A stretch of DNA of 64,000 nucleotides from Olsenella sp. KH3B4 (GTDB lineage Bacteria > Actinomycetota > Coriobacteriia > Coriobacteriales > Atopobiaceae): NCBI GenBank assembly GCA_900111695.1, contig FOHD01000004.1, positions 185,395-249,394 of the forward strand, in the 5' to 3' direction. The notes below the pieces were generated by a model that did no database searches, was not told the origin of the DNA, and saw only the letters and a list, made by a program, of their open reading frames with translations. This document shows, one piece after another, positions 22,996-38,716 of the stretch. Position numbers and translations under genes: made by a program. How positions within the stretch are numbered: position 1 is the stretch's first letter; the number at the start of each line of letters is the position of its first letter.

Positions 22996-23244
22996 ATGGA
23001 CCAGGATCGTCAGGAAGTTTGGGACGCGCTCACCACTCGAGCCAGCCAGCTCTTTGGTAAGGACCCCTCCGAGTTCACGGAGGACACCAAGTTCGCAGAC
23101 CTCGGCATCAAGTCGGTGCAGGTCTCGCAGATCACGACCTACCTCGAGGACGAGCTGGACATTGAGGTTCCGTACATGAAGTTCCGTCGCTGCGCAACGT
23201 TTGGCGAGGCCACGGACTTTGTCTGCGACCTCCTGGACCAGTAG
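22996..23244 (+). CDS. Acyl carrier protein-like protein (first copy)
   Basis: The 82-residue acidic protein has the four-helix carrier protein pattern. The attachment site reads DLGIKSVQVSQ, with Ser40 in place of the usual DSL serine. It would carry acyl groups on phosphopantetheine. GAAAGGGG precedes the ATG. It lies just after the transferase gene and 10 bp before the CocE-like hydrolase gene, so the carrier and hydrolase are probably cotranscribed. It is not in a fatty-acid synthesis cluster, so a dedicated acyl substrate is likely. Confidence 0.82.
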   Translation: MDQDRQEVWDALTTRASQLFGKDPSEFTEDTKFADLGIKSVQVSQITTYLEDELDIEVPYMKFRRCATFGEATDFVCDLLDQ

Positions 23245-23254: not shown

Positions 23255-25174
23255 ATGTTTCTTGAGCCTAGGATTCCCGAGGACTGGGTTCCTGTCACTG
23301 ACAAGAAGCTCCACGACCTCATCCAGATGACGGGCGAGTGCGCGAGCTTCGACGAGGACGAGTGCCCCATCTACTGGGACCCCGACACTGAGGGCTACAT
23401 CTTCCTCCACCGCGAGGCCTTTGGCGAGGACGAGGTCATGGCGGCCTACCGCGTTGCGCGCCAGCCCAACGACAACCAGGCCGAGGTCGACCTCTCCGCG
23501 AGCGACGACCCCATGGCCCGCATGGGCCAGGGCTTCTGCCCGCCCTTCAACCCCCACACCTACCAGGCCGCGGACGGCGTCGTGTGCATGCAGGACCAGG
23601 AAGTGGTCATGCGCGACGGCACCAAGATCTACTGCGACATCTACAGGCCTGAGGGCGACGGCCGCTATCCCACGATCGTCTCCTGGTCCTGGTTTGGCAA
23701 GCGCCCGGGCGACGGCATGAGCGAGTGGCAGATCATGGGCGTGCCCCCCGCGACGGTCTCGAAGTGCGCCAAGTTCGAGTCCCCCGACCCGCTCTACTGG
23801 TGCTACAAGGGCTACGCCGTGGCCAACGTGGACGTGCGCGGTGCCGGCCACTCCGAGGGCTCCGTCCACATGTTCACGCACCAGGACCGCGAGGACGGCT
23901 ACGACTTCGTCGAGTGGGTCGCGGCCCAGCCCTGGTCCAACGGCAAGGTCGGCATGTCGGGCAACTCCGGCGTCGCCATGCACCAGTGGGGCATTGCGGC
24001 CACCTGCCCTCCGCACCTGGTCTGCATTGCCCCGTGGGAGTGCACGACCGACCTCTACCGCGAGAGCTTCTTCGAGGGCGGCGTCCCGGCCCTCTCGTTC
24101 AACAAGTTCATCGCAGCGCAGGTGACGGGCCCCAACGGTGTGGACGACCAGGTCGCCATGGCCAAGATGTACCCCGACATGAACGCCTACTGGAACGACA
24201 AGCGTGCCGACGTGCGCAAGGTCAAGATCCCCGTCTACCAGACCGCCGGCTGGTCGCACTTCCACCTGCCGGGCTCGTTCAACGCCTGGAGGCGCTGCCG
24301 CAGCCACCTCAAGTGGATGCGTGCCCACAGGGACTTTGAGTGGCCCGACACCTACAACCCCGAGAACCTCGAGGACCTGCTGCGCTACTACGACCGCTAC
24401 CTCAAGGAGATCCACAACGGCTGGGAGATGACGCCGCGCGTCCGTCTTGACATCATGGACGGCTACGACGTCGACTATCAGGAGCAGCGTCCCGAGAAGG
24501 CGTGGCCCATCAAGCGCACGCAGTACAAGAAGCTCTACCTCGACGCGTCCGCGCCCAAGGAGTGCGCCGAGCTCGACCACAAGAGCTCCTGCTTCTCGCT
24601 CTCGACCGAGCCGGTGGCCACGCAGGCCAAGGCCAGCTACAACCCGGAGGACGAGGAGCTCGACTTTGACCTCACGCTCCCGGAGGACGTCGAGATCACG
24701 GGCTACATGAACCTGCACCTCTTTGTCTCGTGCGACGGCTTCGACGACATGGACCTCTTCGTGAACGTCCAGAAGGCCGACGCCGAGGGCAACTGGGTGC
24801 CCTGGCTCACGCTCGACGAGCCGCACCCCGGCGCGTGGGGCAAGTGCCGCGTCTCTCGTGCAACCGTGGACACCGGCCTCACCAAGGCCCACACCCCGGT
24901 CTACACGATGACCGACACCAACAAGCTGGCCGAGGGCGAGGTCCGTGCCGTGGACATCGCGATCGTTCCTACGGCCCGCGTGTACCACAAGGGCGAGCGC
25001 TTCCGCGTGCAGATTTCTGGCCGCTACATCCGCGACGGCTGGTTCGAGCCGCTCTCCTGGGATACCGAGAACCACGGCACCCACAACATCCATACCGGTG
25101 GCGAGTGGGAGTCCTGGATCGAGGTGCCCGTGGTGCCGCCGAGGTACCAGGCGGGGGAGTACATCCATCGCTAG
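23255..25174 (+). CDS. CocE/NonD or X-Pro dipeptidyl-peptidase-like hydrolase
   Basis: The 639-residue protein has an alpha/beta-hydrolase domain with nucleophile motif GNSGV (Ser238) and an oxyanion-type block IVSWSWFGKR. A C-terminal jelly-roll domain (about residues 430-639) resembles PepX_C. Relatives cleave acyl esters, amides or peptides; the substrate here is unknown. The N-terminal 90 residues are extra to the core. No signal peptide is seen, so it is likely cytoplasmic. It starts 10 bp after the acyl carrier protein, with GGGGG before ATG 23255, suggesting joint action on an acyl or ester substrate. Confidence 0.78.
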   Translation: MFLEPRIPEDWVPVTDKKLHDLIQMTGECASFDEDECPIYWDPDTEGYIFLHREAFGEDEVMAAYRVARQPNDNQAEVDLSASDDPMARMGQGFCPPFNPHTYQAADGVVCMQDQEVVMRDGTKIYCDIYRPEGDGRYPTIVSWSWFGKRPGDGMSEWQIMGVPPATVSKCAKFESPDPLYWCYKGYAVANVDVRGAGHSEGSVHMFTHQDREDGYDFVEWVAAQPWSNGKVGMSGNSGVAMHQWGIAATCPPHLVCIAPWECTTDLYRESFFEGGVPALSFNKFIAAQVTGPNGVDDQVAMAKMYPDMNAYWNDKRADVRKVKIPVYQTAGWSHFHLPGSFNAWRRCRSHLKWMRAHRDFEWPDTYNPENLEDLLRYYDRYLKEIHNGWEMTPRVRLDIMDGYDVDYQEQRPEKAWPIKRTQYKKLYLDASAPKECAELDHKSSCFSLSTEPVATQAKASYNPEDEELDFDLTLPEDVEITGYMNLHLFVSCDGFDDMDLFVNVQKADAEGNWVPWLTLDEPHPGAWGKCRVSRATVDTGLTKAHTPVYTMTDTNKLAEGEVRAVDIAIVPTARVYHKGERFRVQISGRYIRDGWFEPLSWDTENHGTHNIHTGGEWESWIEVPVVPPRYQAGEYIHR

Positions 25175-25415: not shown

Positions 25416-26378
25416 ATGGCACAGCACAAGGTAATGGGCATCTGCGCCGGTATGCATGGCGGCAACAGCGAGATCGCGCTCAAGGCGGCGCTCGAGGTCC
25501 TGCGCGACAAGGGCGCGGACTGCGAGCTCATCAATCTGTTCGACTACGACATTCTGCCCTGCACCGGCTGCGAGGGCTGCACCATGCAAATGGGTGCCAT
25601 CGCGCAGGACCCCACCAAGGAGTACAAGGGCTGCGTCCTCAAGGACAAGGACGACGTCGACCGCCTGATTGCCGAGATGCACACCTGCAACGGCGTCCTT
25701 ATCGCCGTCCCCACCTACGACCTCATGCCCAGCTCGCTCTACACCCGCTTTGCCCAGCGCTTCCTTGCCTACGAGCTCTCGTTCCTGCTGCAGATCGGCG
25801 TCGTGAAGGAGAACCCGCACACCGTCGCCGGCCTCATTGCCGTTGGCGGCTCCATGCACGACTGGCAGCCGCTCGCGCTCGAGAGCCTGCAGGCCACCAT
25901 GTTCACCATGTCGCTGCAGGTCGTCGACCGCTACATGATCCAGCGCTCCGCGCGTCCCGGCTCGATGCTCATCTTCCCCGAGCAGGTCGAGCGCTGCCGC
26001 GAGATGGGCGAGCACATCTGGGAGGCCATGGAGACCCCGTTTGACCAGCGCACCTGGCTGGGCGACCCGGATGACGGCGTGTGCCCCAACTGCCACTCGA
26101 GCCTGGTCTACCCCGGTGACAAGCACTGGGACGGCGTCGAGTTCCCGTGGGAGTGCGCCGTGTGCGGTGCCGGCGGCGACCTCGTGGTGGACGAGAAGAC
26201 CGGCAAGCCCAAGCTCAAGATTGCCGAGAACGGCCTGATGCGCGACCGCAACGACGACAAGGCCCGCGCCGAGCACCTGAACGAGATCATCAAGACCCGC
26301 ATCGAGTTCATGCAGAAGAAAGAATCCGTGGTCGACCAGGCCGAGCACTTCCGCAAGCTGAGCTTCCCCACCGTGTAG
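25416..26378 (+). CDS. Iron-sulfur flavoprotein/NADPH-dependent FMN reductase, first copy
   Basis: The 320-residue protein has an N-terminal flavodoxin-like fold with a Gly/Asn-rich phosphate loop (CAGMHGGNSE) and CTGCEGC (Cys49, 52, 55), a compact cysteine motif like that of iron-sulfur flavoproteins. The C-terminal 80 residues add two CxxC pairs (VCPNCHSS, ECAVCGAG) that look like a zinc or rubredoxin-type ribbon. It likely passes electrons between a pyridine nucleotide or ferredoxin and an organic substrate. GGAGAGGGG precedes ATG 25416. It is convergent with PucR copy 1, and a paralogue lies at 41018-41995. Confidence 0.75.
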   Translation: MAQHKVMGICAGMHGGNSEIALKAALEVLRDKGADCELINLFDYDILPCTGCEGCTMQMGAIAQDPTKEYKGCVLKDKDDVDRLIAEMHTCNGVLIAVPTYDLMPSSLYTRFAQRFLAYELSFLLQIGVVKENPHTVAGLIAVGGSMHDWQPLALESLQATMFTMSLQVVDRYMIQRSARPGSMLIFPEQVERCREMGEHIWEAMETPFDQRTWLGDPDDGVCPNCHSSLVYPGDKHWDGVEFPWECAVCGAGGDLVVDEKTGKPKLKIAENGLMRDRNDDKARAEHLNEIIKTRIEFMQKKESVVDQAEHFRKLSFPTV

Positions 26379-26402: not shown

Positions 26403-26439
26403 GCGCCGGGCGCAGGTGCTGCGTCCGGCGCTGTTCTTT
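26403..26439. terminator. Bidirectional terminator between convergent flavoprotein and PucR genes
   Basis: GCGCCGGGCGCAG and CTGCGTCCGGCGC form a 13-bp stem with one mismatch around GTG, followed by TGTTCTTT on the plus strand. Confidence 0.75.
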
Positions 26440-28051
26440 AGTCCCCTTCGGTCCTAAAATCCGCGCGTGTGGTGCTGATGCGCGACGTGAAGAGGTCGAG
26501 GAAGAAGAGGATGCGGTAGGACAGCTGGATCATGAACTGGTCCTCGCCCGAGGAGAGGTTGCACCCAAGAATCTCGCGGATGCGGCCCATGCGGTAGAGC
26601 AGCGTGTTCTTGTGGAGGTTGAGCATCTTCGCCGAGCGCTGGGTGTTGCAGGCGTTCTGCAGGTAGATGAAGAGCGTGTCCATGAGCTCGGTTCCGTGCT
26701 CGCGGTCGTAGCGTGCCAGTCGCATGAGCGAGGGGTGCACAAAGTTGAGCAGGTTGTACTGCGCGTTGGTGAGGTCGAGCATCTGCACGTAGGCATAGTC
26801 GCAGTAGTGGTAGACCTGGCCGTCCTCGAGAAAGACCGAGACCATGCGACCCGCCCTGATGGCGGCGCGTGCCTGCTCGTAGTGGCTCTGGATGTGCGTG
26901 AGGTCCTCGAAGGCGTTGCTCACGCCCACCGAGAGGTCGTTCACGTCGGCGACCTTGTGGAGAAGCTCCTCGGTGTAGGTCCCTAGGCCGGCGTCCTTCT
27001 CGCGAGAGAAGAGCACCACGAGCGCCTTCTCATACGTGGCGTAGATGCTGTTCTGGAGGCAGCCGGTGAGCTGCATGGCAATGGACTCGAGGTCATGCGG
27101 GGCGACGTCTGCGTGGTTGGGGTCGAAGACTGCCACGTAGAGCGCGGGGAGGGGACGAAAGTCCAGCACGCTCAGGCGCCGCGCGGTTACGGCATGGCTG
27201 GGCTGCTCGTCGTTGAGGAGGCTTACCAGGAAGTAGGAGTCCATCTGCCCGCGGCTCGCAACATAGAGGTTGGTCTTTTGCATCTCCTGGGCGACGAAGC
27301 GCCCCAGACGGGCCATGCACTCCACGTCCACCTCGCCGAAGGGATGGTCGCGCTCGATCATCATGGTGTGGGCGATGGTCACCCCGTGCACCACCGAGGG
27401 CGTGACCATGGTGTTTGCCCCAAGGACCTCGTTGTACACCACGATGGGCCGGGCAGACTGCGCACAGCGCTCGGTGATCCGTTCGTGCTCGATGAAGGCA
27501 ACGCCGTCCTCGAGGATAGACTCGTAGTGAAACTCCTGCTCAAGCACTTTGTTGATGCGGTTGGTTGGGTCGAGTCTGCCTTCCACGTGGCGTGCCACGT
27601 AGTGGTAGGCGCTGTCCACAACGACAATGGGGTTGCCCAGGGCGCGCGACGCCTCCTCGATGAGGTACTGGAGGCCGTTGTTTGTGAAGTGGGCGGTGAG
27701 CATGCGACGAACGATGTCCGTCACCTGGATGTCCTCGAGGAAGAATCCCTGGACGTCGTTGTAGCAGGAGAAGGGGTTGAACTCCAGGTGGAGCAACACC
27801 ACGTTGGAGGAGGGGCTCTCGAGATACGTCGCAGGTACCTCCTGACACCCAAAGAGGACGACGTTGAGGATGTCTGCGGGAGGCGTCTCGGGCAGGTGCA
27901 CGTCGTCCGAGAAATACAGGACATTGGGGTGGGTGCGCCTCGTTGAGGGGGTGAGGAAGCAGATGTTGTCGATGTTGACCTCTGGGTCACGGAGCTTCCT
28001 CAGGGCAACGGATCCCTCGGGCAGGCGCTTGAGCAGCTCTTTGAGTTCCAC
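26438..28051 (-). CDS. PucR-family transcriptional regulator, copy 1
   Basis: The 537-residue protein has an N-terminal ligand-sensing region, a central GGDEF-like or GAF-like segment, and a C-terminal PucR helix-turn-helix (HTH_30) with CNTQRSAKMLNLHKNTLLYR. Such proteins control catabolic operons in response to small molecules. GTG 28051 is chosen because GAAGGA lies 7 nt upstream; ATGs further upstream give an unlikely N-terminus. It is divergent from the TetR gene at 28202, leaving a 150-bp shared control region. A paralogue sits at 39300, also next to an iron-sulfur flavoprotein gene. Confidence 0.83.
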   Translation of the reverse strand: MELKELLKRLPEGSVALRKLRDPEVNIDNICFLTPSTRRTHPNVLYFSDDVHLPETPPADILNVVLFGCQEVPATYLESPSSNVVLLHLEFNPFSCYNDVQGFFLEDIQVTDIVRRMLTAHFTNNGLQYLIEEASRALGNPIVVVDSAYHYVARHVEGRLDPTNRINKVLEQEFHYESILEDGVAFIEHERITERCAQSARPIVVYNEVLGANTMVTPSVVHGVTIAHTMMIERDHPFGEVDVECMARLGRFVAQEMQKTNLYVASRGQMDSYFLVSLLNDEQPSHAVTARRLSVLDFRPLPALYVAVFDPNHADVAPHDLESIAMQLTGCLQNSIYATYEKALVVLFSREKDAGLGTYTEELLHKVADVNDLSVGVSNAFEDLTHIQSHYEQARAAIRAGRMVSVFLEDGQVYHYCDYAYVQMLDLTNAQYNLLNFVHPSLMRLARYDREHGTELMDTLFIYLQNACNTQRSAKMLNLHKNTLLYRMGRIREILGCNLSSGEDQFMIQLSYRILFFLDLFTSRISTTRADFRTEGD

Positions 28052-28201
28052 GGCTAGGTCCTTCTTGTCGTATGTGCAAGTACACAAAATAATAGGGGAA
28101 TGTCGTCTCGCACGTTGGTCTCGCGCGGGCGGGCGGCAGGGCCACCATCGTTTATAGTTCAGCATATGCGCAGGAAGCGGTAGCATTCGGGAGGTGCGCG
28201 G

Positions 28202-28822
28202 GTGAAGCGGGGCACTGAGAGGAAAGCCAGGAAAAGCGTCGAGGAGAGAATCGAGGAGGCAGTCTTCTGCCTCATGGAGTCAACCGACATCCCCGACATC
28301 AAGGTGGCTGACGTGGTGCGTCTGGCTGGTGTCTCGCGCTCGACCTTCTACCGGCACTTCGATGGCGTCGAGGACGTGGTGAAGCAGTTCGAGGCAGGTC
28401 TTCTCGACACCATGCGGACGATCAACAACACGGCGCTGGGGGTGCAGTTCGACAAGGCCGAGCTTAAGCCCACGCATTCGATGGTTGCCCGTATGGAGGT
28501 GCTTCGCAAGAACCGCGACAAGATCGTGGCGCTCAACAGCGACCACGGCGATCCCGTCTTTCAGCATAGGGCGACCATGCTCATGCACGAGTACTTTCGC
28601 ATTCGCCTGCAGGGGGTTGGCGGCTCCGAGCTCCATCGCGACCTGTACCTCTCGTTTGTGATAGCTGGCCACAACAACCTCATCCAGTACTGGCTCGAGA
28701 AGCGTCCGGAGATCCCGCCCACCGAGGTCGCCGCCATGCTCAACCGCATGTACTACTCGCCGCTCTTTATCGACGAGAAGACCGCGCTCGAGCTTCCCGA
28801 AGACCCGTTCGCCCGCTTGTAG
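28202..28822 (+). CDS. TetR-family transcriptional regulator
   Basis: The 206-residue protein has an N-terminal TetR helix-turn-helix with IKVADVVRLAGVSRSTFYRH, then a helical ligand-binding domain with a hydrophobic C-terminal half. The start is GTG 28202, with GGGAGG about 8 nt upstream. It faces away from PucR copy 1 and lies upstream of the thiolase operon, so it probably represses that operon or itself. Dyads at 29000-29038 are candidate binding sites. A weak promoter (TTCAGC, 17 nt, TAGCAT ending near 28190) may drive it. Confidence 0.88.
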   Translation: MKRGTERKARKSVEERIEEAVFCLMESTDIPDIKVADVVRLAGVSRSTFYRHFDGVEDVVKQFEAGLLDTMRTINNTALGVQFDKAELKPTHSMVARMEVLRKNRDKIVALNSDHGDPVFQHRATMLMHEYFRIRLQGVGGSELHRDLYLSFVIAGHNNLIQYWLEKRPEIPPTEVAAMLNRMYYSPLFIDEKTALELPEDPFARL

Positions 28823-29116: not shown

Positions 29117-30403
29117 TTGGTCAAGCTTGGCAAGCAGGCGCGCAGCGTGTCCATCGTGGGCGTGGGCTGCACTCCCTTCAAGAACTTCGAGGACCATCCC
29201 CAGACGAAGGGCATGAGCGAGGGCGATGCCTTTGGCTATGCCGCGCTGGAGGCCATCCAGGACGCGGGTCTCGAGCCGCGCGACATCCAGTACTTCTACC
29301 ACGGCGCCGCCAACCCCTTCATGATTGGCGACTCGCTCACGCCCAACATGCAGGTCGCTGATTGGTTTGGCGTCCGCGGCATTGGCTCGGTTCACCACTC
29401 TGAGGCGTGCTGCACGGGCTACGTCGCCCTGCAGGAGGCCGTGCAGGCGGTTGCCTCGGGCACCTACGACGTGGTGCTCTCGGGTGCCGTCGACCTTGCG
29501 GCGTCCCTTCCGGTGGTCGACGCGCCAGGCTGCTTCCGCCGCGACTTCCCGCTCTCCGAGATGCTGCCCTCGATCCCCAAGGTCTACGACCGCGCCTACG
29601 GCCGCCCGTTTGACTCCGCGTTTGGCATCTCGTTCGACAACTGGATCAACAAGTACCGCTGGGAGTACGACCTCTCGGCGGAGCAGATCGACGACGCCCT
29701 CAACGGCGTGTCCAAGTCCCTGAGGCGCGATGCCGTGCTCAACCCCCTGGCCTTCTCGACAAAGACCTTCGACGAACTGGCCAAGGAGAACGACCTTCCT
29801 GACGCCGACGCCTACCTCAAGAGCTTTGGCAACCCCAAGGTCACGCAGTACCTGCGCGTGACCGGCTTCGAGATCAAGTGCGACGGCGCCGCCGCCCTGG
29901 TGGTCATGCCCACTGACATGGCTGTCGCGCGCGGACTCGACCACAAGGTGATTGACGTCCTGGGTACCGGTGCCGCCGCCTTCGAGGGAGCCACGCCGGA
30001 CAACGAGTACAACGGCACGAAGGCTGGTGCCGAGCAGGTCTACGAGCTCACGGGCGTGAGCCCCGACGAACTCGACCTTCTCTTTGTGAACGACTTCTTC
30101 CTGGCAGGCGACATCGTGGCGGCCGAGGAGGTTGGCTACATCCCGCGCGGCGAGGCGTGGCAGTACGCCATCGACGGCCGCATGGGCTTCGATGGCGACA
30201 AGCCCATCAACACGCATGGTGGCCGCTGCAACTTTGGTCACGCACATGGCGCCTCCGGCGTTGCGGACGTCGTCGAGGCCGTCAAGCAGATGCGCGGGGA
30301 GGCCGGCGCCACGCAGATGCCCAAGGTCCCCCAGACCACGTTCCTGCGCGGCTTTGGCGGTGGCCAGAACATCCGCTGCCAGATCCTTCGCACCCACGAC
30401 TAG
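29117..30403 (+). CDS. Thiolase-fold acyltransferase (SCP-x/acetyl-CoA acetyltransferase type)
   Basis: The 428-residue protein has the two-domain thiolase fold. The reactive Cys lies in EACCTGYVAL (Cys98), and the C-terminal NTHGGRCNFGHAHGASG block provides the catalytic His residues. Thiolases cleave or form beta-ketoacyl thioesters with CoA; some act with carrier proteins or as aldolases. The next gene encodes a DUF35 zinc-ribbon partner, a common pairing needed for activity in this subgroup. A TTG start at 29117 is chosen because AAAGGAG lies 8 nt upstream. It opens an operon reaching at least to the acyl kinase at 33418. Confidence 0.85.
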   Translation: MVKLGKQARSVSIVGVGCTPFKNFEDHPQTKGMSEGDAFGYAALEAIQDAGLEPRDIQYFYHGAANPFMIGDSLTPNMQVADWFGVRGIGSVHHSEACCTGYVALQEAVQAVASGTYDVVLSGAVDLAASLPVVDAPGCFRRDFPLSEMLPSIPKVYDRAYGRPFDSAFGISFDNWINKYRWEYDLSAEQIDDALNGVSKSLRRDAVLNPLAFSTKTFDELAKENDLPDADAYLKSFGNPKVTQYLRVTGFEIKCDGAAALVVMPTDMAVARGLDHKVIDVLGTGAAAFEGATPDNEYNGTKAGAEQVYELTGVSPDELDLLFVNDFFLAGDIVAAEEVGYIPRGEAWQYAIDGRMGFDGDKPINTHGGRCNFGHAHGASGVADVVEAVKQMRGEAGATQMPKVPQTTFLRGFGGGQNIRCQILRTHD

Positions 30404-30441
30404 CGCTCGGCGCACGCCAAGCAACCAAGAGGAGGTACACG

Positions 30442-30909
30442 ATGCTTCTTGAAGACATGGAGCCAATCGTCAAGAGGTTCTACGACGGCGTTGCCGAGGG
30501 GAAGCTCCTTGGCCGCAAGTGCGCCGAGTGCGGTGCCATCGAGTTCCCGCCGCACCTGGGCTGCAACGCCTGTGGCTACCACAAGACCGAGTGGGTCGAG
30601 CTCTCCGGCCACGGCACCCTCGAGTCCTTCGTGGTGCCCGGCATCCAGAACGACAAGCCCTACCTCAAGGAGATTGAGCCCTACGGCTACGGCAAGGTGA
30701 AGCTCGACGAGGGCGTGGAGTACTCGTTCGTGGTCTTCTGCGGCAAGAAGAAGGTCGTCAAGGGCCTGCAGGAGCGTCTCTACAAGAACCACGAGACCAT
30801 AGGGGTCCACTTCAAGCCCATCAAGCGCCTCGTGCCCGAGAAGGAGGGCTCGGACGTGATGGTCGAGTGGTGGGAGCCCTGCTTCGAGCTGGACGAGGTT
30901 GCGCAGTAA
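30442..30909 (+). CDS. DUF35 zinc-ribbon/OB-fold acyl-CoA-binding partner of thiolase
   Basis: The 155-residue protein has an N-terminal rubredoxin-like zinc ribbon (CAECG and CNACG) and a C-terminal OB fold. DUF35 proteins bind CoA thioesters and associate with thiolase-fold enzymes (for example PhlB, or the archaeal HMG-CoA pathway complex). AGAGGAGGT precedes ATG 30442. The tight spacing between thiolase and acyl carrier protein genes suggests a complex. Substrate unknown. Confidence 0.85.
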   Translation: MLLEDMEPIVKRFYDGVAEGKLLGRKCAECGAIEFPPHLGCNACGYHKTEWVELSGHGTLESFVVPGIQNDKPYLKEIEPYGYGKVKLDEGVEYSFVVFCGKKKVVKGLQERLYKNHETIGVHFKPIKRLVPEKEGSDVMVEWWEPCFELDEVAQ

Positions 30910-30964
30910 GGCCCCCAGGGCAGTACCGCGCATCAAACACACAACAAATCGAAAGGAAACAACC

Positions 30965-31204
30965 ATGGACAGGAACGAACTTCTCGCAACTCTCGCTGGC
31001 CTCGCCAAGGAGGCCTACAAGACCGACGTCGACATCACGCCCGACACCACCTTCGACGAGCTGGGCAAGGGTTCCATGAAGATGATCGCCCTCACCTCGA
31101 TGATCGAGAACGAGCTCGACGCCGAGGTCACCGTCTCCGAGATCATGAACATGAAGACCTTCGGCGAGCTCGTCGACCGTGTTGCCGAGGAGGTCGAGGA
31201 GTAG
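30965..31204 (+). CDS. Acyl carrier protein-like protein (second copy)
   Basis: The 79-residue acidic carrier protein has its attachment site in DELGKGSMKM (Ser37), again not the standard DSL. It lies between DUF35 and phosphate acyltransferase genes, which suggests that the thiolase product or substrate is held on this carrier. GAAAGGAAAC precedes the ATG. It is only distantly similar to the first carrier protein at 22996. Confidence 0.82.
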   Translation: MDRNELLATLAGLAKEAYKTDVDITPDTTFDELGKGSMKMIALTSMIENELDAEVTVSEIMNMKTFGELVDRVAEEVEE

Positions 31205-31292
31205 CACCCAGCGCTTCTCGCACGCAGCACTGCCAGGAAACCCCGGGGCGGCTCCTTCTGGGGCCGCCCCTCTCTACTTACGGGAGAGACAC

Positions 31293-32300
31293 ATGAACCT
31301 CATGGATGCCATGCGCGAACGCGCCAAGGCAGACGTCCAGCGCGTTGCCTTCTTCGAGGGCGAGAACCCCACCATGATCAAGGCGGTGGCGGAGCTCACC
31401 GCAGAGGGCCTTGCCACGTGCACCGTGGTTGGCGATGCCGAGGCGATCAGGAAAAACGCTGACGAGCAGGGCGTGAGCCTTGCGGGCGTGGAGCTTGTCG
31501 ACCTTGCCGACGAGGAGGCCAACGAGGCCATAGCCCAGCGCTTCGAGGTGCTTCCCAGCTGCCGCTGGAGGGCAAAGGGCGTGCGTCGCCGCGTGACGCG
31601 TCCCATGGAGCGCGCCCTCATGATGCAGGCGCTCGGCGACGTGGACATCACCTTTGGCGGCATCGACTGCCCCACCGGCGACGTCATCCTGGGAGGCCAG
31701 GAGATCATCGGCCTCGCGGACGGCATCGACACCGTCTCGTCCATGGGCATCTTCGACATCCCCGGATACCAGGGCTCGGATGGCCAGCTTCTGGGTTTTG
31801 GCGACTCTGCGGTGTGCCAGAACCCCACGCCCGAGCAGGAGGCGTCCATCGCCATCTCCGCCTGTGACACCTGGAGCGCCCTCACCGGCCGAGAGGCGCG
31901 CTGCGCGCTGCTCTCCTTCTCGACCGACGGCTCCGGAGCGGGCGAGATGGTCCAGAAGGTGCGCGACGCCCGCGACATCGCCCGCGAGCGCCGCCCTGAC
32001 CTCAAGATCGACGGCGAGTTCCAGCTCGACGCCGCCCTGCGCCCGGAGGTCGCCGCCCACAAGGTCCATCGCGAGAGCGACGTTGCCGGCAGGGCGAACG
32101 TCATCATCTGGCCAGACCTCAACGTGGGCAACGTGGGCGTGAAGCTCGTGCAGATGTTCGGCCACGCAGACGCGTATGGTCCCATGCTCCAGGGCTTCAA
32201 GAAGATCGTCTGCGACTGCTCGAGGAGTGCCCCCGTGTCCGAGATCGTGGGCAACGTCGTGATGTCCTGCGTTCGCTCGCAGTGCCTGGAGGGGGAGTAG
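31293..32300 (+). CDS. Phosphate acyltransferase (Pta/Ptb family), copy 1
   Basis: The 335-residue protein belongs to the phosphate acetyl/butyryltransferase family. It exchanges the CoA (or carrier) group of an acyl thioester for phosphate, giving acyl phosphate. The phosphate-site block LLSFSTDGSGAGE and the C-terminal KIDGEFQLDAALRPEV are visible. It is followed 2 bp later by an acyl kinase gene, the classic pair for making ATP from acyl-CoA. Acyl chain length cannot be told from sequence. A close paralogue is at 37721-38716. Confidence 0.84.
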   Translation: MNLMDAMRERAKADVQRVAFFEGENPTMIKAVAELTAEGLATCTVVGDAEAIRKNADEQGVSLAGVELVDLADEEANEAIAQRFEVLPSCRWRAKGVRRRVTRPMERALMMQALGDVDITFGGIDCPTGDVILGGQEIIGLADGIDTVSSMGIFDIPGYQGSDGQLLGFGDSAVCQNPTPEQEASIAISACDTWSALTGREARCALLSFSTDGSGAGEMVQKVRDARDIARERRPDLKIDGEFQLDAALRPEVAAHKVHRESDVAGRANVIIWPDLNVGNVGVKLVQMFGHADAYGPMLQGFKKIVCDCSRSAPVSEIVGNVVMSCVRSQCLEGE

Positions 32301-32302
32301 CC

Positions 32303-33418
32303 ATGGCTGAGAAGAACTACCGTATCTTGGTCATCAATCCCGGGTCCACCTCGACCAAGGTGGGTCTCTTCGAGGGCGATGCCTGTGTCTTCTCGGCAAA
32401 CGTCGCCCACGACGCGCAGAAGCTCAAGGAGATCGGTGACGTCTCGGCCCAGCTGCCGTACCGACGCGACATGATCCTCGACATTCTCGACCAGAACAAG
32501 GTCGACCTTGCGGGGATGGACGCGTTCGTCGGCCGCGGCGGAGGGCTCATGCCCTGCGAGGGCGGCGTCTATCAGATTGAGGAGAAGCTCCTCCACGACG
32601 CGCGGATCGGAGCCAACGGGGTGCAGCACCCCGCCCAGCTGGGAAGCCAGCTCGCCCACGAGTTCGCGCGCTTCTCGGGCAACAAGCCTGCCTTTGTGGT
32701 GAACCCGCCCGACACCGACGAGCTCTGCGACGATGCGCGCATGACGGGCATCAGGGGCGTCTACCGCAACGTCCACCTTCACGCGCTCAACCTCAAGGAG
32801 ACGGCCATCCGGCATGCCGCAACGCTTGGAAAGCGCTACGAGGACTGCGACTTCATCGTGTGCCACATTGGGGGAGGAATCTCCATCTCCGCGCACAAGC
32901 ACGGGCGCATGATTGACGGCTACGACATCGTGGGCGGTGAGGGTCCCATGACCCCCACGCGCTGCGGCGCGGTTCCGGTGATCGAAGCGTTTGCCTACCT
33001 CGAGGAGCACGGGATCAACACCACGAGGAGACTGTGCCAGCGCAGCGGCGGCTTTGCCGACCTCCTGGGCACCTCCGACGCCCTTGAGGTGTGCCGTCGC
33101 GCGGAGGCCGGCGACGAGGCAGCGTCACGTGCCTGGAGTGCCATGGAGTACCAGATCGTGAAGTACATCGCCTCGATGGCAGGCGTGCTCCACGGTCATG
33201 TGGACGGCATCCTTCTTGGCGGCGGCATGGTGCACAACCAGGGGCTCGTTGACTACATCCGGGAGGGTTGCGGCTGGATTGCCCCCGTTACGGCATACCC
33301 GGGCGAGTTCGAGCTGGAGGCCATGGCGGCGGGCGCTGTCCGCGCCCTCTCCGGCAAGGAAGAGGTAAGGCACTATACCGGACGCCCGGTCTTCTCGGGC
33401 TTTGCGTGCTTCGAGTAG
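32303..33418 (+). CDS. Butyrate kinase-family acyl kinase, copy 1
   Basis: The 371-residue protein is of the ASKHA acyl kinase type (Buk). It converts acyl phosphate and ADP to free acid and ATP. The phosphate loop NPGSTSTKVGLFEG lies near residue 13, HIGGGISISAHKHGRMID in the middle, and DGILLGGGMVHNQ late. It is just downstream of phosphate acyltransferase copy 1 (GGAGGGGGAG precedes ATG 32303). The pair is the energy-conserving end of a fermentation. Acetate, butyrate or branched-acid use is undecided. Confidence 0.88.
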   Translation: MAEKNYRILVINPGSTSTKVGLFEGDACVFSANVAHDAQKLKEIGDVSAQLPYRRDMILDILDQNKVDLAGMDAFVGRGGGLMPCEGGVYQIEEKLLHDARIGANGVQHPAQLGSQLAHEFARFSGNKPAFVVNPPDTDELCDDARMTGIRGVYRNVHLHALNLKETAIRHAATLGKRYEDCDFIVCHIGGGISISAHKHGRMIDGYDIVGGEGPMTPTRCGAVPVIEAFAYLEEHGINTTRRLCQRSGGFADLLGTSDALEVCRRAEAGDEAASRAWSAMEYQIVKYIASMAGVLHGHVDGILLGGGMVHNQGLVDYIREGCGWIAPVTAYPGEFELEAMAAGAVRALSGKEEVRHYTGRPVFSGFACFE

Positions 33419-33550: not shown

Positions 33551-33585
33551 GCGGCGCGCGGGAATGCCTCGTGCGCCGCATTTTG
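33551..33585 (+). terminator. Terminator after acyl kinase copy 1
   Basis: GCGGCGCGCG and CGTGCGCCGC form a stem (one mismatch) with a short loop, then ATTTTGT. It ends the thiolase operon. Confidence 0.7.
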
Positions 33586-33591
33586 TACCTT

Positions 33592-33605
33592 TGGGCATAT
33601 GCCCA
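33592..33605. promoter_or_regulatory. 14-bp perfect palindrome before the small membrane protein gene
   Basis: TGGGCATATGCCCA lies 22 nt upstream of the ATG of the 169-residue membrane protein. It could be an operator or part of the 5' untranslated region. Confidence 0.4.
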
Positions 33606-33627
33606 GCGTCTAGGGAAGGAATCACTC

Positions 33628-34137
33628 ATGCCGATGAAGACTTCAACGCGGTTCGTGAAGGCAGCAATTCTGAACCTCTGCACAGCCTTGGTGCTGTGCG
33701 TGCTCTGCGAGTGGCTTGCAATCTACGTCTTCCACACCGCGACGCCGACTCCGGGCGAGGGGTGGATCTGGCCCATGTTCTGGATCAACTACGTGTTTGC
33801 CTGGTGCGTGGCAACCATCATCGGCATGGTTCCCTCGCTTCCCGAGGCGAGCGTCCGCTGGGCAATGAAGCGCTCCAACCCCTCCGAGGGTGCCAAGTTT
33901 GGGGCGCTTGTGAACGTGCCCATCAACACGGTCTACGCACTTATCCTCTGCTACTTGGTGGGGACGCTCGACGCCTGCATCCTGGGCGGTGCGCCAATCA
34001 TCGCGTCGGTCTTCGGCTTCCTGCAGAACATCATTCCGGTGTGGATTGCCTGCTACATCGTTACGTTCTTCCTGCAGGGTCCCATCGAGAACTTCGCACG
34101 CAAGGTCTGCAACGACCCTGCGCCGCAGATGCACTAG
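33628..34137 (+). CDS. Small four-helix membrane protein, copy 1
   Basis: The 169-residue hydrophobic protein has about four membrane helices (residues 10-32, 43-65, 85-110, 128-152) and no recognised domain. GGAAGGA precedes ATG 33628. It follows the acyl kinase and precedes the metallo-hydrolase, so a link to uptake or export of the fermented compound is possible. The protein at 38757-39155 has similar topology and a similar neighbourhood and may be a distant paralogue. Confidence 0.65.
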   Translation: MPMKTSTRFVKAAILNLCTALVLCVLCEWLAIYVFHTATPTPGEGWIWPMFWINYVFAWCVATIIGMVPSLPEASVRWAMKRSNPSEGAKFGALVNVPINTVYALILCYLVGTLDACILGGAPIIASVFGFLQNIIPVWIACYIVTFFLQGPIENFARKVCNDPAPQMH

Positions 34138-34176
34138 TACAGTCGCGCGGAGGGTATGCATAGCAAATGGCGTTCC

Positions 34177-34210
34177 GGCGCCCGGGCCATGTGGCTCGGG
34201 CGCCACTTTG
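34177..34210 (+). terminator. Hairpin between the small membrane protein and metallo-hydrolase genes
   Basis: GGCGCCCGGGCC and GGCTCGGGCGCC pair (one mismatch) around ATGT, followed by ACTTTGG. It may partly terminate transcription before the metallo-hydrolase gene. Confidence 0.6.
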
Positions 34211-34233
34211 GACTTAAGGGAGGCACTTCTCGC

Positions 34234-35136
34234 ATGGACAAGATCTTTACGGTTACGGACCTCGGCGACGGCCTGTGGGAGATTGCGGACAGCGTTGGCT
34301 GCCGCTGCTACCTCGTGAGGGGGCGCGATCGCGTGGCGCTCGTGGACTCCTGTGTGGGCGTGGGCGACCTGCGTCCCGTGGTGGAGGGGCTTGCGGGCGG
34401 CCTTCCCGTGACCGTGCTTCTCACGCACCGTCACCACGACCACATTGCGGGATCCTACCTCTTCGACGACGTGCGCATTCCCCAGGAGGAGGTCGACCTC
34501 GGCGTTGAGGAGGAGCAGAACCTGCATGCCCGGAGCTTCTACGTGGAGCAGGGGCGTGCTCCCGAGGGGGCGTTCTGGGCCATGAGCGAGGGCCGGAGGC
34601 CGAACTTCTCGCACTTTGAGGAGGGAGACGTTCTCGACCTGGGCGGAGTCACCATCGAGGGGTACTTCCTGCCCGGACACACCGACCACTCCATGGGCTA
34701 TCTGCTGCGCGAACGGAGACTCCTGCTGGCTGGCGATGCGGTCACGCCCTGCATGTGCCTCTTCTTCCCCGAGAGCCTGCCCATTGCCGATTGGCGCCAA
34801 ACGCTTGACAAGATGGGCGAGATGCCCTTCGACACGTTCCGGATCGGCCACTACTCCCACGAGTTCACCAAGGATGACCTGCGGGGATTCATCGTCGCAG
34901 CCGACTATGCGCTGAGTGGCGCGCGCGGTCTCTCGTGGATGTACACCTACATCGAGGGGCTCAAAGGGTCGCTCTACATCTCGCCGGAAACGCCGACGGA
35001 CGATGCGGACTCGCCGGACTTTCGCGCGGTGATTGGGCCCTACGTGCCCAGGGAGCACAAGCGCCGCAGACGACGCGGGACGCAGGGCGCGGCGGCCGAG
35101 GGGACGCCCGGCGAGGCATCCGGCGAGGAGCGGTAG
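34234..35136 (+). CDS. Metallo-beta-lactamase-fold hydrolase
   Basis: The 300-residue protein has the MBL-fold metal site THRHHDHIAG, then PGHTDHSMG and AGDAVTPC. The family includes glyoxalase II-like thioesterases, lactonases and phosphodiesterases; the substrate here is unknown. A thioesterase role would fit its place next to acyl-CoA and acyl carrier genes, but this is a guess. AAGGGAGG (34217-34224) precedes ATG 34234. The last 30 residues are basic then Gly/Ala-rich and outside the core fold. Confidence 0.75.
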   Translation: MDKIFTVTDLGDGLWEIADSVGCRCYLVRGRDRVALVDSCVGVGDLRPVVEGLAGGLPVTVLLTHRHHDHIAGSYLFDDVRIPQEEVDLGVEEEQNLHARSFYVEQGRAPEGAFWAMSEGRRPNFSHFEEGDVLDLGGVTIEGYFLPGHTDHSMGYLLRERRLLLAGDAVTPCMCLFFPESLPIADWRQTLDKMGEMPFDTFRIGHYSHEFTKDDLRGFIVAADYALSGARGLSWMYTYIEGLKGSLYISPETPTDDADSPDFRAVIGPYVPREHKRRRRRGTQGAAAEGTPGEASGEER

Positions 35137-35241: not shown

Positions 35242-36546
35242 CTACCGCTCGGAACCCGCGGATTCCTTGGGCGCGTGCGCAAGCGCATAGATTGCCAGTG
35301 CCAGGCACGCAGCCATGCACACCAGCGACAGGGCAAACATCAGGCCGTACCCGCCGGCCGAATCAATCACCAGGCTCCAGAACACCGCTGCAACGGCGCT
35401 CATCAGCGATCCAACCATTGAGACGCGCGAGTAGATGTTGGCGTAGTCCGCAGAGCCAAAGACGCTCCGCACCAGAAGCGGCGTCTCGACCGTGGTCATG
35501 GCGTAGACAACGCCAAAGCAGAAGGCTCCCACCAGCAGCAGCGCGAGCACCGATGGCATGCCCCACATGAGAAGGACGCCCACGGCGCCAACGGCGATGC
35601 CGCATACGGCACCAAGGCGCACGGAACGGTCGCTCACGGAGCCGAGAAACACCTTGCCAATCGCCTGGCCGGCCATCGCGGCAGACGCGACGATACCTGA
35701 CGCGGCAGCAATCTGCGGCAGCGAATCGGAAAACGACAGCGCGTAGCTCGAGAGGAACTGGTAGACGGTCTGGTTGAGCGTTATCAGCCCGCAGAAGGCC
35801 ACGATTGCCCAGAACGCGGGCGTGTGCATGGCATCGGCGGCCGAGACGCCCTTCGCAGGCGCGGTTGCGTCAGCACCAGCGCTGGTACCTGTACCGTCGG
35901 CAGTCTCAACCTCGTCTGCGCCATAGGGGAGAAGGCCCTTGTCGGCCGGCTTGCCCCGCACCACGAAGAGCGTGAACGGCAGCGTCCCCACAAGGATGAT
36001 GATGCCAAAGACGAGATACGCCTGGCGCCAACCCTCTGGCGACGACTGGATGATCGACGTTCCCAGCGGGTTGAAGATGACGCCGCCAATGCCCGTGAAG
36101 GCCATGCACAGGCCAACAAAGAACCCCACACGCTTGACGCACCAGGCGTTGATGAGCGTGGGAACGGCCAGGTAGATGAGAGGTGCCACGCCTATACCCA
36201 GCACAGCGCCCACGAGGTAGAACTGCCAGATCTGCTGGCAGGACGCCATGCCAAACATGCTCAGGCCGCAGAGCGCGGTGGCAGCGGAGAGCACTGCGCG
36301 CGAGTCTCGCACGGCCAGGAGCTTGCCGGCAACGGGAAGCGTGGCCATCATGGCGAGGTTGAGCACTGAGAAGTACAGCGTGAAGGAGGCCTTGGGCACG
36401 CCGAAGAACTCGGAGACCGGCGTGAAGAAGATGCCCGCGCACGAGAGAACCAGCGCGCAGGGAAGGCATGTCATCACGATGCACGAGAGGACGATGAGGT
36501 AGGCGTAGTGAAAGCCGCTGCGCGTGGTCGCGTTGTTTCTCGCCAT
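35242..36546 (-). CDS. MFS transporter (OxlT-like monocarboxylate carrier group)
   Basis: The 434-residue protein has twelve predicted membrane helices with a cytoplasmic loop at about residues 200-240. It resembles oxalate/formate antiporter-type MFS proteins. It lies 3 bp after acyl kinase copy 2, with GGAGG in the junction, so it is cotranscribed with phosphate acyltransferase 2 and kinase 2. Export of the carboxylic acid made by that pair, or uptake of its precursor, is the natural guess. Substrate unproven. Confidence 0.78.
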   Translation of the reverse strand: MARNNATTRSGFHYAYLIVLSCIVMTCLPCALVLSCAGIFFTPVSEFFGVPKASFTLYFSVLNLAMMATLPVAGKLLAVRDSRAVLSAATALCGLSMFGMASCQQIWQFYLVGAVLGIGVAPLIYLAVPTLINAWCVKRVGFFVGLCMAFTGIGGVIFNPLGTSIIQSSPEGWRQAYLVFGIIILVGTLPFTLFVVRGKPADKGLLPYGADEVETADGTGTSAGADATAPAKGVSAADAMHTPAFWAIVAFCGLITLNQTVYQFLSSYALSFSDSLPQIAAASGIVASAAMAGQAIGKVFLGSVSDRSVRLGAVCGIAVGAVGVLLMWGMPSVLALLLVGAFCFGVVYAMTTVETPLLVRSVFGSADYANIYSRVSMVGSLMSAVAAVFWSLVIDSAGGYGLMFALSLVCMAACLALAIYALAHAPKESAGSER

Positions 36547-36549: not shown

Positions 36550-37674
36550 CTAGGCCTCCACGTCGGCGGGAGCGCCGTCCAGCTCGAAGCCGTCCCAGGA
36601 GGGCTCGCCCGTGTAGGTCATGACGTCCTCCGTGCCGTCGAGCGCGCGCACCGCACCGGCTGCCGCGCCCTCCATCTCGAAGTCGCCCGCAAAGACGCTC
36701 ACCGGGGCGATCCAGCTCACGCGCTCTGTGACGTAGTCAACAAAGCGCTGGTCATGCGAGACGCCGCCCGTGAGAACAATGCCGTCGACCTTGCCCTCGA
36801 GCACGGCCGCGAAGGCGCCGATCTGCTTTGCGGTCTGGTATGCCATGGCCTCGAAGACGAGCTTTGCCCACTCGTCGCCCGCGTCGATTCGCGCGTCAAT
36901 CTCCATCGCGTCGTCGGTGCCGAGCAGGCCCTTGAGGCCGCCGGTCTTGCCAATGACCCCCATGACCTCCTTCTTGTCGTGCTTGCCGGAGAAGGCGAGA
37001 GCGGCGACGGGCTTTACCGGCACGTCGCCGGAGCGGTTGGGGGCAAAGGGGCCCGAGCCCTCCAGCACGTCATTCGTGTCGACCATGCGCCCGCGCCTGT
37101 GCGCTGCAACCGAAAGGCCGCCGCCGACGTGCGCCACGATAACGTTGACCTCGTCATAGGCCTTGCCGAGAGACGCCGCGCAGCGGATGGCGCACTCCTT
37201 CTGGTTGAGGCAGTGCACGTGGCTCTTGCGGTAGATGCCGGGGTAGCCGGTGATGCGGGCAACGTCCTCGAGCTCGTCGGTGTCGGGCTGGTTCACGGCA
37301 AAGGCGGGCTTGCCGCAGCGGCCGGCAAGGTCGAAGAGGATGGGCGCGCCCAGGATAGCGGGGTGGTTCATCCCGCAGTTGAGCACGTGGTCGCAGACGG
37401 TCTTGTCGATACGGAAGATGCCACCGACCGTGGGGCCCATGCCGCCGCAGTAGCCCGAGAATGCGTCGATGCTCTCGAGCGCGATCCCCGCTGCCTCAAG
37501 CGCGTCGAGCACGGTCTTTGTGCGGAATCCCAGCTGGTCCGCCGCCTTGTCGAATCCAGCCAGCACAGCAGGGTCGTGGCGGACGTTTTCCCTCATGAGG
37601 GCCTTCTCGCCCTCGAAGACGGCGACCTTGGTGGAGGTCGAGCCGGGGGAGAGCGTGAGTATGCGATAGGTCAT
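36550..37674 (-). CDS. Butyrate kinase-family acyl kinase, copy 2
   Basis: The 374-residue acyl kinase has SPGSTSTKVAVFEG near residue 9, HVGGGLSVAAHRRGRMVD in the middle, and DGIVLTGGVSHDQ late. It forms ATP from acyl phosphate. AAGGAG precedes ATG 37674. It is paired with phosphate acyltransferase copy 2 upstream and the MFS carrier downstream. It is a clear paralogue of copy 1 at 32303 but in opposite orientation. Confidence 0.88.
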   Translation of the reverse strand: MTYRILTLSPGSTSTKVAVFEGEKALMRENVRHDPAVLAGFDKAADQLGFRTKTVLDALEAAGIALESIDAFSGYCGGMGPTVGGIFRIDKTVCDHVLNCGMNHPAILGAPILFDLAGRCGKPAFAVNQPDTDELEDVARITGYPGIYRKSHVHCLNQKECAIRCAASLGKAYDEVNVIVAHVGGGLSVAAHRRGRMVDTNDVLEGSGPFAPNRSGDVPVKPVAALAFSGKHDKKEVMGVIGKTGGLKGLLGTDDAMEIDARIDAGDEWAKLVFEAMAYQTAKQIGAFAAVLEGKVDGIVLTGGVSHDQRFVDYVTERVSWIAPVSVFAGDFEMEGAAAGAVRALDGTEDVMTYTGEPSWDGFELDGAPADVEA

Positions 37675-37720: not shown

Positions 37721-38716
37721 TTAGCGGGCGGAGAGGACGAGCATGGCGATGTCGCCCACCATCTCCTCGACGGAGGAGCCGCGCGAGCTGTCCGCCACCG
37801 GGCGCTTGAAGCCCGAGAGGTTGTGGCCGTAGCCCTTGCCGTGCGCGAAGAGCTGAACGAGCTTGACGGCGGTGTTCGCGCAGTTGAGGTCGGGGAACAC
37901 GAGCACGTTCGCGCGGCCGGCCACGGCGCTCTCGCGCTTAACCTTCTTTGCGGCAACCGCCGGAACGATGGCCGCATCGAGCTGGAACTCGCCATCGAGG
38001 GCAAGGTCGGGCCTGCGGTCGCGGGCAATCGAGAGGGCCTCGCGGATGCGCTCGACGCTGGGGCTCTCGCCGGAGCCGTCCGTGGAGTAGCTGATAAAGG
38101 CGCAGCGGGGCTCCCAGTCCATGAGGGAGGCTACGTTGTCGCAGGCGGCAATCGCGATGGAGGCAAGCTCCTCTGCTGTGGGCTCGGGGTTGAGGCCGCA
38201 GTCGGCGAGCGCGATGACGTCGCCCTCGGGTCCGGAGAAGCCCGGAGTCTGCACGAGCGCCAGGATGGAGGGCACGTCCATGCCATCGGCCAGGCCAATG
38301 ATCATCTGAGCTGCCATGAGGACGTCGCCAGTCGTGTTGGTGTGGCCGCAGAACGTGCAGTCCACGTCGCCAAGGTCCTCGAGCATCATTGCGTAGTTGA
38401 GCGGGTTCTTGAGCTTGCGACGGGCGGCCTTTGCCGAGAAGAGCCTCTCGCGGCCGGCGCTCATGTAGCGCTCGGCGAGGGCGTCTGCCGCCTCCGCGTC
38501 TGCGGTGTCCACGATGCGCATACCCTCAGTCGAGACACCCGCGCGCTCTGCCGTCTGCGCGATGACGTCAGCAGGGCTCACGAGGACCGGGGTCCCAATG
38601 CCATCGTCCGCGACGCGCCTTGCCGCAAGCAGGGTGTCCTCGTTCTCGCACTCGGGAAGCGCCACAACCTTGGGCGTCTTACGTGCCTTCTCAATGAGCT
38701 CGTCAATAAGTGCCAT
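37721..38716 (-). CDS. Phosphate acyltransferase (Pta/Ptb family), copy 2
   Basis: The 331-residue protein matches copy 1 over its whole length, with FISYSTDGSGES and ALDGEFQLDAAIVPAV. The N-terminal half differs more (ALPECENEDTLLAARRVADD). It would convert an acyl thioester to acyl phosphate for kinase copy 2. It starts an operon on the minus strand together with kinase 2 and the MFS carrier; the small membrane protein gene lies 40 bp upstream in the same direction and may belong too. Confidence 0.84.
   Translation of the reverse strand: MALIDELIEKARKTPKVVALPECENEDTLLAARRVADDGIGTPVLVSPADVIAQTAERAGVSTEGMRIVDTADAEAADALAERYMSAGRERLFSAKAARRKLKNPLNYAMMLEDLGDVDCTFCGHTNTTGDVLMAAQMIIGLADGMDVPSILALVQTPGFSGPEGDVIALADCGLNPEPTAEELASIAIAACDNVASLMDWEPRCAFISYSTDGSGESPSVERIREALSIARDRRPDLALDGEFQLDAAIVPAVAAKKVKRESAVAGRANVLVFPDLNCANTAVKLVQLFAHGKGYGHNLSGFKRPVADSSRGSSVEEMVGDIAMLVLSAR

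Follow-up and report, generated by a model that had tools for sequence, protein, structure and literature searches.

A thiolase–DUF35–carrier protein–transacylase–kinase module in Olsenella sp. KH3B4 as a candidate for ATP formation from carrier-bound acyl groups

Which carrier holds the acyl group when a gene for an acyl carrier protein (ACP) stands between a thiolase pair and a pair of phosphate acyltransferase and acyl kinase? This question is raised by five genes of Olsenella sp. KH3B4, located in a stretch of 64,000 nucleotides (the window; GenBank assembly GCA_900111695.1, contig FOHD01000004.1, positions 185,395 to 249,394 of the forward strand; G+C 64.5%) of a 2.38-Mb genome in 22 contigs. 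In an original prediction, a thiolase, a DUF35 protein, an ACP, a phosphate acyltransferase and an acyl kinase had been placed here in this order, and all five were recovered on the + strand at 29117-33418 using Pfam and NCBIfam models, the last two as a PTA_PTB transacylase (Pta) and a butyrate kinase (Buk). Carrier proteins are familiar components of synthetic pathways and of enzymes like citrate lyase, whereas ATP formation via acyl phosphate is known with coenzyme A. As judged by sequence comparison, the ACP is very likely the acyl carrier between the enzymes of this module, and for the module as a whole we lean towards a carrier-protein version of acyl-phosphate substrate-level phosphorylation.

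Carrier protein beside the thiolase

Thiolase relatives were collected at 77 sites (loci L085, L088-L142 and L226-L244, each place counted once) in Coriobacteriia, Lachnospiraceae and one Anaerolineales metagenome-assembled genome (MAG), and ACPs were searched using a model built from seven module ACPs. DUF35 was present at all 68 sites having at least 1.7 kb downstream, and an ACP was present within 1.6 kb at 62 of these, as a separate gene at 57 and fused at five. Where 8 kb was available in each direction (50 sites), ACP, Pta and Buk were found within 8 kb at 47, 39 and 36 sites, respectively. Since the genome holds four PF00550 carriers in 2.38 Mb, two of them in the window, the pairing of ACP and thiolase goes beyond chance. 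Even in places that lack a nearby Pta or Buk, such as L141 and L227, the ACP is found beside thiolase-DUF35, which argues that it belongs primarily to the thiolase.

DUF35 and ACP form one chain in L092, L239 and L242, while in L241 and L243 DUF35 bears two ACPs behind Ala-rich or Ser-rich linkers, resulting in five fusion sites in four genomes (G335, G836, G842 and G903). Both domains were recognized by Pfam in all five fusions, the zinc ribbon lying 1.0 bit (L239) and 0.1 bit (L243) below its cut-off. In genome G138, thiolase and DUF35 were seen as one chain of 622 amino acids (L050:1738-3606), and in G006:C6 and G034:C26 the thiolase match fell into two pieces, where the gene may be broken or misassembled.

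The six sites without ACP by this count were one of the two L093 sites, L095, the first of the tandem thiolases of L244, L226, L229 and L237. For L093 and L095, an ACP is located farther away in the same locus. At L229:11342-11485, DUF35 is followed by a truncated ACP-like frame that lacks the Ser region, and no ACP was seen in L226, a close relative of L229, which looks like carrier loss in one lineage.

The attachment Ser was kept in 84/84 aligned ACP domains, and both ACPs of the window (ACP1 in the thiolase operon and ACP2 farther upstream) are acidic, with a pI of 4.1. One of the two PF01648 matches in the genome lies in the window; it is the protein predicted as a transferase at 22193, which proved to be a phosphopantetheinyl transferase (22187-22834, PF01648 33.2 bits) and is the presumed activator of ACP1 and ACP2. 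A gene of this kind was also found near the module in Tractidigestivibacter scatoligenes-type loci, in six Collinsella-type loci (L085-L087, L134, L135 and L142, two being duplicates), in Anaerolineales L139 (PF01648 69.9 bits) and in Lachnospiraceae L181 (67.3 bits). That the ACP is the fatty-acid ACP of the cell is disfavoured, the genome having two further PF00550 carriers, C22:1515 and C13:178731. The former, a fourth carrier of the genome, spans G000:C22:1515-1703, and the latter lies about 0.5 kb after a weak PF01515 match (C13:177740) that is presumably PlsX.

As controls, four of ten listed plasmid thiolase relatives (about 30% identity; 540 records matched) were opened. Each had a small neighbour gene assigned as the DUF35 partner by annotation or by position (the one in H2 is labelled hypothetical only), and no ACP was detected by the search model beside these four pairs; for H3 and H8, the neighbours were acyl-CoA (CoA, coenzyme A) genes. 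From this small sample (n = 4), ACP appears to be no general companion of thiolase-DUF35 pairs. The Chloroflexota cold-seep plasmid CP069395.1 (L245) carries a distant thiolase together with a Zn-ribbon OB-fold protein, KAS III, a ketoacyl-ACP reductase, a CoA transferase and an alpha/beta hydrolase.

The thiolase of the window is 98% identical to that of T. scatoligenes and related strains. Within its own family, 46/140 genomes have a relative (E up to 1e-20), as do 49/396 genomes of the class (E up to 1e-60). For a Lachnospiraceae MAG, relatives were found in 10/299 genomes of its family (E up to 1e-70) and, with its phylum sampled evenly, in 1/398, namely the MAG itself. A scan of named genomes yielded 47 loci, including T. 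scatoligenes, Parafannyhessea umbonata, Olsenella, Collinsella aerofaciens, C. phocaeensis and C. provencensis as well as one Anaerolineales MAG and one Lachnospiraceae MAG. Given this scattered occurrence, the distribution of the module is patchy and crosses phyla. The minimal module, in C. aerofaciens, consists of phosphopantetheinyl transferase, TetR, thiolase, DUF35, ACP, Pta, Buk and a major facilitator superfamily (MFS) gene, and none of the reductases of the window was found within about 10 kb of it.

CocE front end and active-site residues

Two elements of the window had escaped the original prediction: ACP2, directly 5′ of a CocE/NonD hydrolase (CocE), and, at 36550-38716 of the minus strand, a further pair of transacylase and kinase. 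ACP2 adjoins CocE in 14/14 CocE-bearing loci among L084-L142, and C. phocaeensis has ACP2, Pta2 and Buk2 in direct succession. In Lachnospiraceae, where 11 of 13 CocE places were examined, the order is ACP-CocE-Pta-Buk in L201 and L203 and CocE-ACP-Pta-Buk in L205 and L208, with ACP and Pta located farther along from CocE in L204. In the Lachnospiraceae MAG locus L181, an Ala/Pro-rich linker joins ACP and CocE in one chain of 735 amino acids, behind which lie Buk, an AcpS-type transferase, FMN_red and Pta; the same genome also holds ACP-thiolase-DUF35 (L141) and thiolase-DUF35-ACP (L234). Two unrelated, putatively acyl-cleaving enzymes, thiolase-DUF35 and CocE, are thereby placed on one ACP-transacylase-kinase back end. 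Because a thiolase fold and an alpha/beta-hydrolase, alike only in forming an acyl-enzyme, both accompany ACP, Pta and Buk, this back end would work on acyl-ACP, and we consider the pairing the strongest argument for doing so.

Pta residues were compared at columns Arg87, Arg133, Ser309 and Arg310 (M. thermophila numbering), the first two being contacts to a CoA phosphate in canonical Pta. Arg133 was found in none of 72 module Ptas, many of them from genomes present twice (Leu 46, Met 11, Ile 11, Ala 2, Thr 1, Val 1), while the catalytic Ser309/Arg310 were kept in all 72; in Pta1, Leu replaces Arg133 and Ser309/Arg310 are retained. A second set of module Ptas, 18 of which were new relative to the first, displayed the same residue pattern (24/24). 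All four residues were present in 30/30 canonical Ptas of the order, including that of the window genome, these controls being the best-scoring loci of 55 matching genomes and biased to canonical Pta; L143 was left out for lack of a BLASTP match to the reference and was later found without both arginines. According to the extract of PMC6461089, mutation of Arg89 and Arg135 in P. gingivalis Pta led to losses of 58% and 21% of activity, and arginine mutation in M. thermophila Pta chiefly altered Km.

In a tree, 31/33 module Ptas with either front end formed one clade (support 0.996) apart from canonical Ptas. Pta1 remained below the cut-offs for phosphate acetyltransferase (TIGR00651, 227.6 of 311.2 bits) and phosphate butyryltransferase (TIGR02706, 57.5 of 410.5 bits). 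PTA_PTB was the one Pfam family matched by Pta1 and Pta2, and membership of the PlsX family was not found.

Profile comparison of the thiolase with the PDB gave 7yvy (135 bits), the archaeal 6esq (89.8), BbsB 7pxp (78.6), PhlC 9skh (74.5) and the Ltp2-type 6ok1 (64.1). Among the 77 aligned relatives, the nucleophilic Cys98 was kept in all, His375 (GHxxGA) in 74 and His62 in 72, the last a possible counterpart of PhlC His56 by its similar distance before the Cys. Most have NDF at the HDCF stretch (Asn325 70/77, Phe327 71/77), and Cys at 327 was found in only three (L093 twice, L095). At the C-terminal CxG position (413), Phe or Tyr was found in 71/77, with GFGG/GYGG-like stretches in most. The acid/base Cys of thiolases lies in an HDCF or a CxG motif, in SCP2-type enzymes in HDCF, and a condensing thiolase needs such a residue; in agreement with this role of the HDCF Cys, the trypanosome enzyme was deposited as a variant with this Cys changed to Ala (4bi9 versus 4bia).

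Thiolase, DUF35 and ACP scored below the curated cut-off of every NCBIfam model shown (best 154.5 of 420, 24.2 of 250 and 31.1 of 66 bits, respectively), and the BbsAB cut-offs were missed likewise (BbsB 88.3 of 750, BbsA 24.2 of 250 bits). Both kinases scored above the butyrate kinase cut-off.

Proposed mechanism and its alternatives

Built on the observed parts, their order, conservation and fusions, and the residues kept and lost, the following scheme is proposed. The phosphopantetheinyl transferase would yield holo-ACP. Cys98 of thiolase-DUF35 would attack the carbonyl of an uncharged diketone or acyl-phenol, the other half would depart as a stabilized enolate or phenolate in a PhlC-like retro-Claisen or retro-Friedel-Crafts reaction, and the acyl group would pass from Cys98 to the ACP1 thiol, a transfer that we infer. 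Pta1 would convert acyl-ACP and phosphate to acyl phosphate and holo-ACP, following which Buk1 would form carboxylate and ATP. The sister module, consisting of the CocE-type serine hydrolase, ACP2, Pta2 and Buk2, would operate by the same scheme, and the FMN and FAD reductases would serve substrate preparation or electron disposal. ATP formation is the probable direction; a phenolic-derived substrate is a tentative guess.

That ACP is a dedicated carrier between thiolase-DUF35 and the transacylase-kinase pair, as originally predicted, is supported by co-occurrence and by the fusions in four genomes, and further by the second ACP-CocE-Pta-Buk arrangement, the nearby phosphopantetheinyl transferase and the lost CoA-contacting arginine(s). 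The accompanying claim that a beta-ketoacyl group already on the carrier is cleaved is not supported in this form: the set contains no enzyme expected to place such a substrate on the carrier, and its thiolase is devoid of the acid/base Cys of ordinary thiolases. Cleavage of a free diketone or acyl-phenol, with the acyl group subsequently moved to the carrier, is preferred. A stable enolate or phenolate leaving group would do without the lost Cys, hence the proposal that cleavage is PhlC-like and delivers the acyl group to ACP. As described in the extract of PMC6392133, Cys88 of PhlC acylates and deacylates phloroglucinols without CoA, His56 being essential and His347 having a role.

PhlABC of Pseudomonas protegens, a CoA-independent Friedel-Crafts acyltransferase, shares with the module a Cys-bearing subunit of thiolase fold and a DUF35 subunit, possibly also an active-site His upstream of the Cys and, by the proposed scheme, CoA-free acyl transfer to and from a C-nucleophile (PMC6392133, extract). 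It has a FabH-like third subunit, PhlA, whereas no FabH/KAS III-type gene was found in the module operon using Pfam, and ACP, Pta and kinase, all present in the module, are not part of PhlABC in that extract. The archaeal 6esq and BbsB 7pxp are likewise thiolase-DUF35 pairs, but pairs of this type have CoA thioester substrates and an HDxF motif, in contrast to NDF in the module clade. Ptb-Buk or Pta-Ack systems, e.g., in phloroglucinol fermentation by Clostridium scatologenes, likewise use a thiolase, a phosphate acyltransferase and an acyl kinase to obtain acid and ATP; there the carrier is CoA, and neither DUF35 nor ACP is named in the extract of PMC10470551, whereas the module has a conserved and partly fused ACP and a Pta without Arg133.

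The module might instead run in the activating direction, which we consider unlikely: Buk would phosphorylate an imported carboxylic acid and Pta would load ACP, after which the FMN/FAD enzymes would reduce the acyl-ACP, or thiolase-DUF35 would draw on it to acylate a molecule exported by MFS. Every step is reversible and an MFS gene adjoins many modules; in addition, PhlC acts as an acyltransferase in biosynthesis (PMC6392133, extract). By the excerpted descriptions, fatty acid kinase and PlsX (FakAB-PlsX) link acyl phosphate and acyl-ACP beside a carboxylate kinase, but they belong to other protein families and serve fatty-acid uptake for lipids, not ATP making, whereas the module has PF01515 and the acetokinase family. 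The PucR regulators, paired Pta-Buk sets, reductases and URO-D-type and Gfo/Idh-type genes fit catabolism, however, and a hydrolase-type front end on the same back end suits cleavage above condensation. The thiolase, moreover, lacks the acid/base Cys that condensing would require. Quite improbable is an ordinary CoA pathway, in which thiolase-DUF35, Pta and Buk act on acyl-CoA and ACP is a bystander or serves another enzyme. All enzyme families concerned are CoA families in known cases, and Pta relatives of the Ptb type, which use CoA, likewise lack the arginines. Against this stand the fusions of ACP to DUF35 at five sites and to CocE, the ACP at 62/68 thiolase sites, the second ACP with the second front end in 14/14 loci, and the lack of a detected ACP near the four plasmid pairs, which are CoA-type or uncharacterized; a plain CoA thiolase-Ptb-Buk operon is thus disfavoured by the fusions and the conserved ACP. 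ACP could also have a subunit role, holding a substrate in place for the reductases or stabilizing thiolase-DUF35, with the acyl product leaving on CoA. Its position after DUF35 in L141 and L227 would suit such a role, but the invariant attachment Ser, the phosphopantetheinyl transferase often located nearby and the loss of CoA-phosphate contacts in Pta render it highly improbable.

Several observations weigh against a carrier-based route. Pta is missing within 8 kb at 11 and Buk at 14 of the 50 wide sites, no complete ACP was seen near the thiolase at the Lachnospiraceae sites L226, L229 and L237, and none was detected at 5/11 examined CocE loci of Lachnospiraceae. The L201 ACP has no Pfam match, and that of L181 reaches 19.7 bits against a cut-off of 20.8. 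The alignment around Arg87, which as aligned is absent from all 72 module Ptas, contains gaps, and in Pta2 an Arg occupies the next column. Ptb-like CoA-type relatives (L143, L176-L178) also lack both arginines; their loss therefore fits an ACP substrate and is no proof that CoA is excluded. The PF01515 protein L185, outside the module, keeps Arg133, and the Ptas of L093 and L095, whose thiolases retain HDC, fall outside the module clade. In the extract of PMC6461089, the P. gingivalis arginines are placed at a second CoA site.

Neighbouring genes, substrate hints and meaning

The genes of the module and its surroundings are listed in Table 1. For the first FMN_red protein the listed start was chosen; computations used 25470. 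The MFS transporter shows weak likeness, below cut-offs, to bile-salt and oxalate/formate transporters. The run of FMN_red, FAD_binding_2 and NuoG/GltD-like genes at 41018-45930 recurs near other modules and may represent a reductase accompanied by a dedicated electron donor. Between ACP1 and Pta1, a strong G+C hairpin of 11 pairs without a T run was seen at 31245-31270 (fold of 89 nt, -37.8 kcal/mol, z -2.95, 2/200 shuffles equally good), which could set the Pta-Buk level lower than that of thiolase-DUF35-ACP.

Table 1. Positions, strands and supporting matches of features in the window
Feature	Position	Strand	Support
Phosphopantetheinyl transferase (Sfp/AcpT-like)	22187..22834	+	PF01648 33.2 bits, cut-off 25
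ACP2, 82 aa, Ser in LGIKSVQV	22996..23244	+	PF00550 35.0 bits, cut-off 20.8
CocE/NonD (Peptidase_S15) alpha/beta-hydrolase, ACP2 partner	23255..25174	+	TIGR00976 225.7 bits, cut-off 66.3
FMN_red protein, C-terminal Zn-ribbon-like cysteines	25416..26378	+	PF03358 34.1 bits
PucR-type regulator, divergent from thiolase operon	26438..28186	-	PF13556 64.6 bits
TetR-type regulator, directly upstream of thiolase	28202..28822	+	PF14278 38.2 bits; PF00440 slightly below cut-off
Thiolase-like subunit, 428 aa, with Cys98, His62, Asn325 and His375	29117..30403	+	Thiolase_C_1 91.3 bits; TTG start after AAAGGAG
DUF35 partner subunit (ChsH2-type Zn ribbon + OB fold)	30442..30909	+	zf-ChsH2 28.1 bits, cut-off 23.2
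ACP1, 79 aa, Ser in LGKGSMKM, pI 4.1	30965..31204	+	PP-binding PF00550 43.5 bits, cut-off 20.8
Pta1, PTA_PTB phosphate acyltransferase	31293..32300	+	PTA_PTB 269.2 bits
Buk1, butyrate-kinase-family acyl kinase	32303..33418	+	TIGR02707 344.9 bits, cut-off 289.1
Hydrophobic protein, frequent near module in relatives	33571..34137	+	no Pfam match
Metallo-beta-lactamase-fold hydrolase	34156..35136	+	PF00753 60.2 bits
MFS transporter	35242..36546	-	PF07690 103.5 bits
Buk2, second acyl kinase	36550..37674	-	TIGR02707 376.7 bits, cut-off 289.1
Pta2, second PTA_PTB phosphate acyltransferase	37721..38716	-	Arg133-equivalent is Met
Second PucR-type regulator	39300..40892	+	PF13556 55.7 bits
Second FMN_red protein	41018..41995	+	PF03358 54.9 bits
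FAD_binding_2 reductase, nearest NCBIfam model vinyl phenol reductase	42143..43693	+	NF053717 312 bits, under cut-off 600
NuoG/GltD-like Fe-S flavoprotein, presumed electron donor to FAD reductase	43765..45930	+	

Hints from these neighbours make a plant-phenolic substrate a lead. The best PDB match of the first FMN_red protein is 7d38 (E 7e-10, a distant relative), the flavone reductase FLR of gut bacteria (PMC7862272, extract). Close to the Lachnospiraceae modules, Gfo/Idh oxidoreductases, a xylose-isomerase-like barrel and URO-D-family proteins were found. Proteins of these types take part in the C-deglycosylation and O-demethylation of plant phenolics. In Collinsella the module comes without the reductases, which suggests that cleavage can act directly on the compound as imported. 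A link to phloretin/diacetylphloroglucinol hydrolase (PF18089) was not supported: it occurs in 10/140 family genomes (nine above cut-off) and together with the thiolase in three (G042, G046 and G053), which is about the chance value (46 x 10 / 140 = 3.3), and it was not found in the genome of the window.

Every protein family involved is known. For the route from acyl-ACP via acyl phosphate to ATP, no description was recognized among titles and abstract starts in the open PMC literature. The module may represent a modular, CoA-free harvest of the energy of C-C (perhaps ester) bonds in gut and rumen anaerobes, a reading to which we give slightly less than even confidence: interchangeable front ends would load dedicated ACPs, from which a Pta branch with altered cofactor contacts and a butyrate-kinase-family enzyme would form ATP. 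If so, uncharged diketones or acyl-phenols, e.g., from plant polyphenols, could be fermented without prior activation to a CoA thioester, and a carrier-based branch with two exchangeable front ends would account for ATP gain by anaerobes from ketones not easily converted to CoA esters. A function would also be assigned to thiolase, DUF35 and ACP proteins that fall below all NCBIfam cut-offs shown. The module occurs in common gut organisms such as C. aerofaciens and in the skatole former T. scatoligenes; if confirmed at the bench, it would constitute a so far undescribed mode of energy gain in fermenting bacteria.

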